33,554 bases of DNA from NCBI GenBank assembly GCA_903892045.1, contig CAITGX010000449.1:1-33554 (forward strand), in the 5' to 3' direction. Every line of letters starts with the position of its first letter. Position 1 is the first letter of the stretch. Shown one piece after another: positions 23,810 to 29,655 of this stretch. The notes under the pieces are model-generated. The model saw only the letters and a program-made list of their open reading frames with translations, did no database searches and was not told the DNA's origin. The position numbers and the translations under genes were made by a program. The stretch comes from an uncultured Planctomycetota bacterium. GTDB taxonomy: Bacteria; Planctomycetota; UBA1135; GCA-002686595.

Positions 23810-23921
23810 GCGGGCGTGGGCGCGACGAGGGCGCGCCGCGCTGGCGAATCGTAGCGCATCGGGACGGGACATGGGCGAGGGCGCAGGACAGGCCGCGGCG
23901 GAGCGCGGTAGGATCCTCGCC

Positions 23922-24317
23922 ATGAGCGCCCCTCGCCCCCACCCGCATTTCAACGACAAGGGAACCCTCGACTGGCACACGAGCTGGAAGGAGGCGCTCG
24001 GAAGCGCCAAGGCCCAGGGCAAGCTCATCTTCATCGAGTTCGGCCGCGAGGCCTGAGGCCAGTGCCGCGCCCTCGTGCAGGGCGCCGTCCCCCACCCCGA
24101 GATCGCTCCCTTGCTCCAGCAGCACTTCGTGGCGCTCGCGTCCGACTGCGACGACGCCGAGTACGAGGTCGAGGTCCTCGCCGGCCAGCTCGAGGATGCC
24201 TACATGCTGCCTTTCGTCCTCTTCGCCGATGCCGACGGCCGCTTCCTCGGCGGCAACTCGGGCGCGATCAACCCGCTGTACTTCAAGCGCACCCTCGAGA
24301 AGCTCGTCCAGAAATGA
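23922..24317 (+). CDS. Predicted thioredoxin-like selenoprotein (UxxC), in-frame UGA at 24054-24056 read as Sec45
   Basis: Same-frame continuation across TGA: MSAPRPHPHFNDKGTLDWHTSWKEALGSAKAQGKLIFIEFGREA-U-GQCRALVQGAVPHPEIAPLLQQHFVALASDCDDAEYEVEVLAGQLEDAYMLPFVLFADADGRFLGGNSGAINPLYFKRTLEKLVQK. Trx fold on both sides of the UGA, cis-Pro region (MLPFVLFADADG), bSECIS-like hairpin, ATGA overlap with next gene. Confidence 0.85.
24064..24088 (+). promoter_or_regulatory. Putative bacterial SECIS (bSECIS) hairpin downstream of the in-frame UGA
   Basis: GCGCCCU (24067-24073), loop CGUGC (24074-24078), AGGGCGC (24079-24085): 7 perfect pairs, extendable past a C.C mismatch by C-G and G.U. Loop begins 17 nt after the UGA; G is second loop base followed by U. 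Confidence 0.75.
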
Positions 24318-25483
24318 TCCAGTCCTTCCAGCCGCCCGCACGCACGCTCCTCGGACCCGGCCCATCGGACGTCGCCCCGTCGGTCTCGCGCGCCCTCGCT
24401 GCGCCGACCTTGGGGCACCTCGACCCGAAGCTGCTCGGCTGCATGGACGAGCTGCGCGGGCTCCTGCGGCCCGTGTTCGGCACGAGCCATCCGGCGACGT
24501 TCCTCGTCTCGGGCACGGGCACGGCCGGCATGGAAGCGGTGCTCGCCAACCTGATCGAGCCCGGCGAGGTCGTGCTCGTGCCGGTGCACGGCTACTTCGG
24601 AGCTCGCATCGCGGAGATCGCGGCGCGCTGCGGTGCTGACGTCGTGCGCGTCGACGGCGAGTGGGGGCGCGCGAGCGATCCGGAGCGCGCGCGGGCCGCT
24701 CTCGGCGGCAGGCAGCCCAAGCTGGTCGCGGTGGTCCATGCCGAGACCTCGACGGGCGTGCGCCAGGACCTCGCGCCTTGGAGCGCGCTCGCGCGGGAGC
24801 ACGGTGCGCTGTTCGTGACCGACACGGTCACTTCGCTCGGCTGCATTCCGATCGGCGTCGACGCCCACCACATCGACGGCGCCTGGTCCTGCACGCAAAA
24901 GGGACTGTCCTGCGCGAGCGGCATGTCCCCCGTCACGTTCTCGCCACGCGCCGTCGAGCGCATGCGCGCGCGCAGCCGCAAGGTGCAGAGCTTCTACCTC
25001 GACCTCGGCCTGCTGCTCGAGTACTGGGACGGCGCGCACGTCTACCACCACACGATCTCGTCGAACCTGATCTATGGCGTGCACGAGGCGCTGCGGCTCA
25101 TCCACGAGGAGGGTCTCGAGGCGCGCTTCGCGCGCACAGCGCTGGTCTCGCGCGCGGCCTGCGCGGGCTTCGAGGCGCTCGGGCTCGAGCTGCTCGTCCC
25201 CGCCACCGAACGCCTGCCCCAGCTGCTCGCGGTGCGGGTCCCCGAGGGCGTCGACGACGTGCGCGTGCGCACGCGCCTGCTGCAGCAGTTCGACCTCGAG
25301 ATCGGCGGAGGCCTCGGCGCGCTCAAGGGCAAGCTGTGGCGCGTGGGACTGATGGGGCACGGCGCGACGCGTCGCAACGTGCTGTTCCTGCTCGCCACCT
25401 TGCGCACCTGCCTCGAGGGCGAGGGCTTCCGGCCCAAGGGCGATGGAGCCGCCGCCGCCGACGCGGTCTTCGGGGGACGCTAG
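24314..25483 (+). CDS. Class V pyridoxal-phosphate aminotransferase (alanine/serine-glyoxylate aminotransferase-like)
   Basis: LLGPGPSDVAPSVSRAL, VSGTGTAGMEAVLANLIEPG, HAETSTGV, WSCTQKGLSCASGMSPVTFS (PLP Lys), VGLMGHGATRRNV; ATG 24314. Confidence 0.93.
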   Translation: MIQSFQPPARTLLGPGPSDVAPSVSRALAAPTLGHLDPKLLGCMDELRGLLRPVFGTSHPATFLVSGTGTAGMEAVLANLIEPGEVVLVPVHGYFGARIAEIAARCGADVVRVDGEWGRASDPERARAALGGRQPKLVAVVHAETSTGVRQDLAPWSALAREHGALFVTDTVTSLGCIPIGVDAHHIDGAWSCTQKGLSCASGMSPVTFSPRAVERMRARSRKVQSFYLDLGLLLEYWDGAHVYHHTISSNLIYGVHEALRLIHEEGLEARFARTALVSRAACAGFEALGLELLVPATERLPQLLAVRVPEGVDDVRVRTRLLQQFDLEIGGGLGALKGKLWRVGLMGHGATRRNVLFLLATLRTCLEGEGFRPKGDGAAAADAVFGGR

Positions 25484-25489
25484 CGCGCG

Positions 25490-28336
25490 ATGAGCTCTCC
25501 GCGTCGCTCGCTGTGGGCCGCGGCCCTCCTGTTCGTGCTCTCGGGGCTCACGGGCCTCGTGTACGAGACCGTGTGGTTCAAGCGACTGGGCCACGCCTGG
25601 GGCAGCTCTTCTCTGGCGATGGCGAGCGTCGTCGCGACGTTCCTGTGCGGTCTCGGGCTCGGAGCCTGGATCGCGGGGCGCATCGCGGATCGCTCGCGGC
25701 GACCGTTGGCGCTGTACGGCTGGTGCGAGCTCGGCATCGCCGCGCTCGCGCTGCTCGTGCCCTTCGAGTTCCACTGGCTGCTCGAGAGCGCCGCGCCACT
25801 CGCCCACGAGCTCTCCGACTCGCCGGTCCTGCTCGTGGGCCTGCGCTTCGCGCTCACGTTCCTCGTCATCGGTCCGCCGTGCGTGCTGATGGGAGCCACG
25901 CTGCCGCTGCTCACGCGTCAGTTCGCGGCGCAAGGCCTGTCACTCGGCGCGTCCGCGGCGTGGCTCTACGCGTTCAACGCGCTCGGTGCCGCCGCAGGCG
26001 CCTGGCTCGCGGGTTTCTTCCTGCTCGAGCAGTTCGGACTGGGCTGGACCAACGGCCTCGCAGCCGCCGTGAACGCGGCGGTCGGCCTCGCGGCGCTCGC
26101 GCTGGCGCGCACGGTCGAGACGTCGGACACCGCGTACGTCGAGCCCGCGACACTGGAAGTCGAGGAGGTCTCTCCGCGCTCACTGCAGCTCGCCGCGCTC
26201 GGAAGCGGCGTGGCATCGATCACGCTGCAGATGCTGTGGGCGCGCGAGCTCGCGCTGCTCCTCGGCGGCACGACCTATGCCTTCAGCGCCACGCTCGCGA
26301 TCTTCATCCTCGGCATCGGGCTCGGCAGCCTGTGGTTCCGCCTGGGCTTCTCCGAGCGCCCGCGGCTCGAGAAGCTCGTGAGCCTCGCGGCGGCGCTCGT
26401 GGTGCTCGCGACGCTCGGCGGCCTCGCTCTGGAGCCCGGCCTCGCGCGCGCCGTCGGCTACCTCCGCGACGGGCGCGGCGACGGCGGCTTCAACGCGGTG
26501 CTGTGCGCCTCGACGGCTGCGGTCCTGCAGCTCCTGCCCACCGTCGGCATGGGGCTCCTCTTCCCGGCGCTCGTGCAGCTCTCGCGCCAAGGCGCGGCGC
26601 GCGCGGGCCACGCGGTCGGTGCGCTCTACGCGTGGAACACCGCCGGATCGATCGCGGGCGCCGCCTGCGGCGCGCTGCTGCTCCTGCCCGCGCTCGGCAG
26701 CTTCTGGACTTTCCGTGCGGCACTGCTCGTGTACGCGCTCTTGCCACTCCTGCTCTTCCGTGCCCGCGCCTTCGCCGTCGCGACCTCGATCGCCTGCGCC
26801 ACGGTGCTGCTCTCCGACTGGCGCCGGCCCGACCCGCTCGACACCAACGTCGGCAGCTACATGTACGGCCCGACGACGCCCGACGACGTGCGCGCCACGA
26901 TGCGGCCGGTGTTCTTCGAGGAAGGCGCCAACTGCAACGTGCTCGTGCTGCAGGGCGAGAAGCTCGCGCTCGAGGGCGGCGCGAAGCCCGAGGAGTTCTT
27001 CAACCTGCGTTCGAACGGCAAGGTCGACGCATCGACGGGCGAGGACATGCCGACGCAGCTCGGCATCACGTGGGTGCCGCAGTTCCTGCGTCCCGCCGCG
27101 CGCAACGTGCTCGTGATCGGCATGGGTTCAGGGACGACCGCGGGCGCGGCCGCGCTGCTGCCCGGCACGCAGGTCACGGTGTGCGAGATCGAGCGCGGCG
27201 TGATCGAGTCGACTCGCTGGTTCGAGAGCGTCAATCACCGGCCGCTCGAGCGCGACAACGTGCAGGTCGTGGTCGACGACGGCCGCAGCTTCCTCCAAGG
27301 CCACCCCGGCGGCTGGGACATCATCGTCAGCGAGCCCTCGAATCCGTGGATCGCCGGCGTCGCGAACCTCTTCACCGAGGAGTACTACCGCACCGCACAG
27401 CGCAAGCTCGCGCAGGGCGGAGTGCTCGCGCAGTGGCTGCAGACGTACTCGTTCGATGCAGAGGACTACGCGCTGGTCGTGCGCACGGTGCAGCGCGTGT
27501 TCCCGCGCTGCGCGTTCCTCCGGCTCGGACACTACGACACGCTGATCCTCGCGAGCGAAGCGGAGCTCTTCCCCGATGCGGGGACGCTCGATCGCACCCA
27601 GCGCAAGGTCGACGCGATCCCGGAAGTGATCGCCGACCTCGAGCGCCACTTTGGCTCGCGCGACGTGCGCTCGGTGATCCTGCAGCGACTGTGGCTCGAC
27701 GAGCACGGCCTCGCGCGCTTCACCGCCACGCTCGGCGGCAGCGACCTCAACACCGACCTCAACATGCGGCTCGAGTTCGCCGCGCCACGCAGGCTCTTCG
27801 GCGAACTGACCGACCCTGCCGAGCGCACGTTCAAGCTCCTGATGCAGTCGGCGGACAGCACGCTCCACCCGAACCTGTTCACGCGCTGGCGCTGCGGACC
27901 CGAGCAGCTGCCAGCCCTCAAGGAGCTGAAGTCCAGCATGCTCCGCGCCGAGGCCATCGCTCCGGCAGCCGCGGTGGTCGCGCTGGGCCTCGCCTACGCC
28001 GACGATGACGGCGAGCTCGTCGCGGACCGCCTCCTGCTCGACGGCTCCATCCCACCGCAGGAGTTCCGCGAGCAGGTGACGCGCCTCGCCAGCAGCGCGC
28101 CACTGGAGGTGCTGCGCCTGGGGCACCAGCTCGGCGAGCTCGGACAGCACAACGCCGCGCGCGTCGTGTTCGAGCTGCTCACCGAGCGCTTTGCGAACTC
28201 GGCGACGGCGTGGCACGGGCTCTCCGTGCAGCAGCGGAGCCTCGGCGACGGCGCAGCCGCGGACGCTTCTCTCGCGCGTGCCCGCGAGCTCGACCCGCTC
28301 CACGACCGCTTGCTGCAGTTGCCCGCAGCTCGCTAG
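25490..28336 (+). CDS. Fused MFS/spermidine synthase-like membrane protein with C-terminal TPR-like region
   Basis: N-terminal multi-TM region (LFVLSGLTGLVYETVWFKRLGHAWGSSSLAMASVVATFLCGLGLGAW), methyltransferase-fold VLVIGMGSGTTAGA...CEIERGVIESTRWF...VVVDDGRSFLQ...IIVSEPSNPWIAGVANLFTEEYY. Confidence 0.88.
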   Translation: MSSPRRSLWAAALLFVLSGLTGLVYETVWFKRLGHAWGSSSLAMASVVATFLCGLGLGAWIAGRIADRSRRPLALYGWCELGIAALALLVPFEFHWLLESAAPLAHELSDSPVLLVGLRFALTFLVIGPPCVLMGATLPLLTRQFAAQGLSLGASAAWLYAFNALGAAAGAWLAGFFLLEQFGLGWTNGLAAAVNAAVGLAALALARTVETSDTAYVEPATLEVEEVSPRSLQLAALGSGVASITLQMLWARELALLLGGTTYAFSATLAIFILGIGLGSLWFRLGFSERPRLEKLVSLAAALVVLATLGGLALEPGLARAVGYLRDGRGDGGFNAVLCASTAAVLQLLPTVGMGLLFPALVQLSRQGAARAGHAVGALYAWNTAGSIAGAACGALLLLPALGSFWTFRAALLVYALLPLLLFRARAFAVATSIACATVLLSDWRRPDPLDTNVGSYMYGPTTPDDVRATMRPVFFEEGANCNVLVLQGEKLALEGGAKPEEFFNLRSNGKVDASTGEDMPTQLGITWVPQFLRPAARNVLVIGMGSGTTAGAAALLPGTQVTVCEIERGVIESTRWFESVNHRPLERDNVQVVVDDGRSFLQGHPGGWDIIVSEPSNPWIAGVANLFTEEYYRTAQRKLAQGGVLAQWLQTYSFDAEDYALVVRTVQRVFPRCAFLRLGHYDTLILASEAELFPDAGTLDRTQRKVDAIPEVIADLERHFGSRDVRSVILQRLWLDEHGLARFTATLGGSDLNTDLNMRLEFAAPRRLFGELTDPAERTFKLLMQSADSTLHPNLFTRWRCGPEQLPALKELKSSMLRAEAIAPAAAVVALGLAYADDDGELVADRLLLDGSIPPQEFREQVTRLASSAPLEVLRLGHQLGELGQHNAARVVFELLTERFANSATAWHGLSVQQRSLGDGAAADASLARARELDPLHDRLLQLPAAR

Positions 28337-29655
28337 CGCGCCCGCGCCTTGGCGTTGGCGAGCAGCGACTCGAGCTGCGCGAGCGCCGCCGGATCGGTGA
28401 GTTCCCTGCGCGCGCGCGCGATGAGCTCTTCCTGCAGGCTTCCGAGCCCCCCGCGCGTCGCCGCGCCCGCGAGCGTGACGAAGGCCGCCGGGCGACGATC
28501 GACGCCGAGCACGACTGCGCACAGGGCGCTCGCGTCCGGCCCGCGACCGATGGCGGCGAGCGCCTCGACGTGCATCGACGCCGCAGCGAGCGTCGATGTG
28601 CGCCGCACCTCGAACGGATCGATGCCCTTGGACTGCGGCTCCGGGACGGGCCGACCTTCCTTGGCAGCCTTCTCGGCCTCGGCAGCCGTGCGCGCGAGGT
28701 CCTCGGCCAGAGCGCGATAGCGGGCATCGAAGTCCGCGAGGAAGTTGGGGCGCCCGGCGAGAAACTCCTCGAAGCGCCGCTCGCGGAACAGGCTCTGCGC
28801 CACCATGTCCGAGAAGCTCGCGGCGAGCACTTCGGGCGCGACGTCGCCCTTGGCCTTGAGCGCGCGCCAGGTCTCGAGCTGCTTCTCGGGGGTCACCAGC
28901 GCGGAGTTCAGCGCCGCCAAGTCGAGCGCCAGCTCGAGCTGCACGTCGCCTTCCTTGGGCTCGAGGAGCCGCGCCGCGAGCGCGTCGCGCCGTGTCACGA
29001 GCTCCCGGCGCACCGGCTTCATGCGGTTCGCCATCTGCCCGAGCTTGTAGATCGTCGCTTCGCGGCGCATCTGCACGAACTCGGGCTCGTTCGCGCCGTT
29101 GTCCCACGCCCACAGGTAGTGCTCGATCGCGCGCTCGTGCAGGAGCACGTCGATGTAGCAGTCGCCGAGCAAGGCACGCGCGAGCGCACTCTTCGGGTTG
29201 TCCTTCACGCGCGCGCGCGCCGGCGCCATGAAGTCCACGTGCTTGAGCATCGGCTGCATCGCTGCCATGAGCGCGCGCGGCTCGACCTCGCCGCTCCAGC
29301 GCTCGACCTCCGCTGCGCTCGCGTTGCACAGGACGACGGCTCCCGCACCATCGACGCCGAGGGCCCCGGCGACGGCCGGAGCACTCGCCAGATCGAGCTT
29401 GACCGCCACCGCGCGAGCCTCGAGCCAGCGCACGAACACGGCGTCCTGCAGCACGCTCGCTTCGAAGCTGCGGCCCGCCTCGGTGCGCGAGTCGAAGAAG
29501 CCGAGCACCAACGCGCGCTTCTCCTCGCGCGCCGCCAGCTGGGCAGCCTCGACGGGGATGGGGCGGTAGCCCTGCGGCGGGGCCTGCGGAGCCGGTGCCG
29601 GAGAGGGGTCCTGCGTGACGGCCAGGGCGAGGGCGAGAAGAGCGTGGTGCAGCAT
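28333..29655 (-). CDS. Secreted protein with degenerate thioredoxin-like N-terminal domain and helical (TPR-like) C-terminal region
   Basis: Start MLHHALLALALAVTQDPS (signal peptide) at CAT 29653-29655. EEKRALVLGFFDSRTEAGRSFEASVLQDAVFVRWLEARAVAVKLDL resembles a Trx fold without CxxC. The ORF track's 1297 aa frame is over-extended. Confidence 0.6.
   Translation of the reverse strand: MLHHALLALALAVTQDPSPAPAPQAPPQGYRPIPVEAAQLAAREEKRALVLGFFDSRTEAGRSFEASVLQDAVFVRWLEARAVAVKLDLASAPAVAGALGVDGAGAVVLCNASAAEVERWSGEVEPRALMAAMQPMLKHVDFMAPARARVKDNPKSALARALLGDCYIDVLLHERAIEHYLWAWDNGANEPEFVQMRREATIYKLGQMANRMKPVRRELVTRRDALAARLLEPKEGDVQLELALDLAALNSALVTPEKQLETWRALKAKGDVAPEVLAASFSDMVAQSLFRERRFEEFLAGRPNFLADFDARYRALAEDLARTAAEAEKAAKEGRPVPEPQSKGIDPFEVRRTSTLAAASMHVEALAAIGRGPDASALCAVVLGVDRRPAAFVTLAGAATRGGLGSLQEELIARARRELTDPAALAQLESLLANAKARAR

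Follow-up and report, generated by a model that had tools for sequence, protein, structure and literature searches.

An in-frame UGA at codon 45 of a planctomycete gene, in the place of the first active-site cysteine of a thioredoxin-type motif, is almost certainly read as selenocysteine (Sec), if we may judge from several kinds of sequence evidence. The gene lies in what we call the window, the whole stretch of 33,554 nucleotides that was analysed (contig C449 of a fragmented Planctomycetota MAG, 91% complete, with an assembly of 4.4 Mb). We hold with high confidence that its product is a small thioredoxin-fold oxidoreductase, probably cytosolic, in which Sec takes the part of the first active-site cysteine.

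The gene and its relatives

When TGA is read as U, positions 23922-24317 (+) give a single protein that starts MSAPRPHPHFNDK, continues through KLIFIEFGREA-U45-G-Q-C48-RALVQG and finishes with LEKLVQK, the stop codon being TGA 24315-24317. The original prediction was of one gene of 131 residues with the motif U45-G-Q-C48, split at the TGA by an ORF caller; its coordinates and residue numbers all proved correct on re-translation, and the plain ORF list supplied with the DNA does cut the frame at 24056. The features concerned are as follows.

23910..23913, + strand: AGGA, likely ribosome binding site by inference from the sequence, with the ATG 8 nt downstream
23922..24317, + strand: thioredoxin-fold selenoprotein CDS, 131 aa, ATG start (sequence, PF13899 match, homologs)
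24054..24056, + strand: TGA codon 45, read as Sec, where the first active-site Cys would be (TGA in 42/69 homologs, Cys in 27/69)
24063..24065, + strand: TGC codon 48, resolving Cys of UxxC, invariant (alignment of homologs)
24067..24085, + strand: bacterial SECIS hairpin of 7 bp, arms 24067-24073 and 24079-24085, apical loop CGUGC at 24074-24078 (covariation, fold, published model)
24210..24212, + strand: CCT, Pro97 of an invariant LP motif (alignment), expected from the fold to be the cis-Pro facing the active site
24314..25483, + strand: class-V aminotransferase gene, a neighbour outside the selenoprotein, its ATG overlapping the selenoprotein stop (ATGA)

Within the taxonomic family of the source genome, relatives were detected in 55 of 81 genomes (E up to 1e-20), many of them with one internal TGA, and phylum-wide in 38 of 392 sampled genomes (E up to 1e-18), spanning six families. 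Those with names are all planctomycete MAGs, several of them from lakes, and a search of plasmids found no relatives there. Among the 69 homologs examined (a count that leaves aside G131:C99 and G365, both remote and each with one TGA, whose site is unmatched by the pattern used), codon 45 is TGA in 42, TGC or TGT in 27 and nothing else, so that an in-frame UGA in a conserved frame is aligned with Cys, and the second cysteine, Cys48, is kept in all 69. In comparisons with the three nearest relatives, all within the genus, the part 3' of the TGA has a dN of 0.08-0.12 and a dS of 0.52-0.57 and, since dN is thus far below dS, it is under purifying selection. Given the family-wide relatives, the restriction of codon 45 to TGA, TGC and TGT, and this downstream selection, the in-frame TGA is not there by chance. 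A plain gene caller cuts such genes at codon 44, so that wherever a genome has the TGA form, this widespread redox protein of planctomycetes escapes annotation.

Fold and predicted function

The window protein passes the Pfam profile Thioredoxin_7 (PF13899) with 45 bits against a cut-off of 27, and an AlphaFold2 model made from a 22-row alignment, with Cys for Sec, has a thioredoxin fold (pLDDT 95.8, pTM 0.90) in which residue 45 sits just ahead of the first active-site helix (residues 46-55) and P97 is the expected cis-Pro. The best PDB matches of the model are a Methanosarcina domain (3ira), DsbD-gamma and a Thermus thioredoxin, and DsbH domains are also among the matches. The profile score, the CxxC-type site, the LP motif and the fold together place the protein among the thioredoxin-fold oxidoreductases, the activity itself being predicted: it is from fold and motif alone that we infer a thiol-disulphide oxidoreductase function. 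There is no apparent signal peptide on the 131-residue protein. Four remote UGA homologs (L115, L116, L117 and L121) are apparently longer, being extended at the C-terminus and hydrophobic over a stretch at the N-terminus, and are perhaps exported.

How might such a protein work? The selenolate of Sec45 would be the nucleophile, attacking a disulphide or some other oxidised substrate, and the resulting mixed selenide-sulphide would be resolved by Cys48, both steps following from established thioredoxin chemistry; the oxidised Se-S pair would then presumably be re-reduced by the thiol system of the cell. Several positions of the alignment are invariant across 22 diverse members (H7, P8, H9, F10, D12, W18, E39, G41, R42, [U/C]45, C48, V52, D75, D77, L96, P97, G106, G111 and G114). 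It might be argued that the protein, even with Sec at residue 45, is simply a general thioredoxin, as it has the thioredoxin fold, UxxC and the LP motif, and thioredoxins are among its structural matches. However, its profile matches are to Thioredoxin_7 and DsbH, with none to PF00085 at E up to 1; its active site follows the pattern [UC][GSTP][QGND]C across the alignment, not CGPC; and it has an extra invariant N-terminal motif, HPHFxD. We therefore consider a general thioredoxin unlikely, and the invariant HPHF-x-D N-terminus, together with the D-x-D loop, would suggest an enzyme with a dedicated partner.

The SECIS hairpin

Numbered from the U of UGA, nt 14-20 pair with nt 26-32, and the loop has an invariant GU at 22-23. 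In a first set of 32 distinct UGA sequences, 100% of pair cells hold standard pairs, compensatory changes on both sides occur at five of the seven pairs, and 0 of 500 shuffles match the covariation score. A set of 41 UGA sequences, which extends to further families and includes L047, the weakest of all with only five of the seven pairs formed, still has 99.3% of pair cells paired, against 79.4% in shuffles, and 51 doubly changed cells, against 13.2 in shuffles, a number reached by 0 of 500. As these shuffles keep the kinship between sequences in, kinship is addressed by slid controls, which are 33-56% paired in the 41-sequence set and so far below the true position (as they are in the first set too), and by the Cys forms: among 21 Cys homologs the pair cells stand at 68.0% (shuffled mean 66.2%), and 16 of the 21 do not form pair 18-28. 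Coding constraint alone is not behind the pairing, because the peptide is nearly the same in the TGA and Cys sets. At the level of sequence, the strongest evidence for reading UGA45 as Sec is this difference between the TGA-bearing and the Cys-bearing versions of one protein.

The constraints published for bacterial SECIS elements are a loop of 3-9 nt, a stem of 4-16 bp, a G at loop position 1 or 2, a spacing of 16-37 nt and an energy of at most -7.5 kcal/mol (PMC13188914), and the window hairpin agrees with all of them (loop 5 nt, stem 7 bp, the G in position, spacing 17 nt, energy below -7.5). Folded alone, the window sequence gives a hairpin that is not stabler than its shuffles (z -0.59); it is the covariation, and not the single-sequence folding energy, that is evidence for a SECIS. 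A search of the region against Rfam returned chance matches only.

That the TGA is an ordinary stop, whether in a broken gene, between two separate ORFs or through a sequencing error of TGC to TGA, would agree with the plain ORF search, which stops the frame at codon 45, and with the fragmented state of the MAG; but TGA recurs in 42 homologs across many independent assemblies, dN is far below dS beyond it, and a covarying hairpin accompanies the TGA forms, so we give this explanation almost no credence.

The meaning of UGA in the host genome

The genes that bacterial selenoproteins call for (selA, selB, selC and selD) are all present in the source genome. In profile searches selA gave 498.9 bits, selB 330.8 bits (a single frame covers both its GTPase and its C-terminal part) and selD 306 bits, and tRNA-Sec, with the anticodon TCA, scored 71 bits. 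The selD gene (L010, G000:C38) has an in-frame TGA of its own, reading DCAGUAGK, and this UGA in CAGU is presumably the one established as the Sec site in SelD selenoproteins. The motif of SelD in a recent selenoprotein catalogue is UxxK (PMC13188914). With selD itself a selenoprotein gene, the genome has at least two. The gene for RF2 (prfB; L126, G000:C473) is present too and keeps a classical UGA-dependent programmed +1 frameshift site (CUU-UGA-C), from which it follows that UGA still terminates elsewhere in the genome.

A genome-wide reassignment of UGA to Trp, Gly or Cys (the last of which would equally account for a UGA that stands in frame where Cys is expected) can be set aside as exceedingly improbable, since the selenoprotein gene itself ends in TGA, in step with its relatives, the frameshift site in prfB would have no purpose unless UGA were a stop, a SECIS hairpin would be needless, and the TCA-anticodon tRNA found is tRNA-Sec. 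The reading of UGA45 as Sec, as originally predicted, is thus supported, at the level of sequence, by the Sec machinery, by the occurrence of TGA or Cys at codon 45 and by the covarying hairpin; all the computational checks proposed with that prediction gave positive results, and nothing that it named as counting against the idea was observed. Sec would be inserted with the aid of the SECIS loop 17 nt past UGA45, together with SelB, tRNA-Sec, SelA and SelD.

Exchange of selenium and sulphur forms

The nearest relatives of the window gene (L022-L024) are Sec forms; another member of that genus, L025, has Cys. Another taxonomic family (f21) has homologs with 40-48% identity along most of the sequence. 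These have kept UGA (UGNC), have their own version of the hairpin and, it appears, are hydrophobic over a stretch at the N-terminus and extended at the C-terminus. On a tree of the homologs (132 columns, with the trait position masked) the Sec/Cys label changes 13 times (bootstrap range 12-14; at least five changes are forced by well-supported branches), the tree being unrooted, so that the direction of change is not readable from it. The selenium and sulphur versions of the family have thus replaced each other many times, in about 13 exchanges, among which there may be regains of Sec from Cys.

Of the 37 genomes of the family searched, 34 have selA over the cut-off and 34 have tRNA-Sec over the cut-off. 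Most of the Cys-form genomes among them have both, and because the machinery is present even there, Sec is exchangeable in these lineages. Among the first relatives, selA is present in each of the 14 UGA-bearing genomes and tRNA-Sec, over the cut-off, in 13; G006, which has the UGA form and selA, shows no tRNA-Sec over the gathering score, probably through incompleteness of its assembly. Close relatives, even within one genus, differ in Sec or Cys while nearly all keep the machinery, and they therefore form a clean natural experiment on the reasons for retaining or abandoning Sec, and on the rate at which an unneeded SECIS decays. It is a tentative idea, and rather doubtful as a whole, that this is a substrate-dedicated enzyme in which Sec was gained and lost several times in lineages that kept the machinery, the SECIS arising and decaying in step.

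Relation to known selenoproteins

The original prediction left open whether the family had already been described; it is absent from NCBIfam (June 2026), where no model scored over its cut-off for the window protein, and from a 2026 catalogue of 119 selenoprotein families, the full Table 1 of which has none with this domain and UxxC (PMC13188914). The thioredoxin-type families of that catalogue have other domains or motifs (PMC13188914). Thus, the thioredoxin selenoprotein (PF00085, UxxC; PMC13188914) has the fold, the N-terminal active-site Sec and the resolving Cys in common with the window protein, but the latter has PF13899, the HPHFxD N-terminus and UGQC, and neither the PF00085 match nor the CGPC-type site of a classical thioredoxin. 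The nearest NCBIfam model is the Trx7/PDZ selenoprotein NF041199, which likewise has a Thioredoxin_7-type domain, but its Sec is at the other Cys (CxxU, against UxxC here), the model extends over 390 positions with PDZ, and the window protein scores 24.3 bits where the cut-off is 300. The thiol:disulfide interchange selenoprotein (PF13098; PMC13188914) is also thioredoxin-like with UxxC, but the window protein scores 23.8 bits against its cut-off of 27. The DsbD C-terminal (gamma) and Thioredox_DsbH (DUF255) domains, among the best structural matches, have CxxC at the same place; they are, however, Cys domains of larger proteins, whereas the window protein stands alone at 131 aa. The models for the UxxC thioredoxin-like selenoproteins SaoT (NF040730) and HUIPC (NF047660) gave no match at all in the NCBIfam search.

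A literature search for a thioredoxin with UGQC returned none, and there is no such family in the passages found of a 2022 selenoprotein list. Planctomycete selenoproteins as such are already known (PMC4807772), though the selenoproteome of the phylum is little described. Set against NCBIfam, Table 1 of the 2026 catalogue and the passages found of the 2022 list, the family is probably new, of a familiar kind (the UxxC thioredoxin-fold selenoproteins); it would add one to the approximately 119 catalogued prokaryotic selenoprotein families.

Gene neighbourhood

In the clade of the window the gene lies between nuoN and the class-V aminotransferase gene, whose order and spacing are identical in L052 and L054, and the stop/start overlap (ATGA) suggests that the two may be translationally coupled. 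The aminotransferase was considered as a general functional partner and dropped, as the gene is missing from two close UGA-bearing relatives (L051 and L053), where a spermidine-synthase-like gene directly follows the thioredoxin gene, and as neighbours vary by clade, other clades having AICARFT/IMPCHase or a DUF255 protein. In L063 (2088-4307) a gene for a DUF255 (Thioredox_DsbH) protein is directly 3' of the selenoprotein gene, and its product is possibly a redox partner. Elsewhere in the window, at approximately 28333-29500 (-), a translated protein has what by eye may be a thioredoxin-type domain together with repeats, the CxxC site having seemingly been replaced (FFDSRTEAGRSFE).
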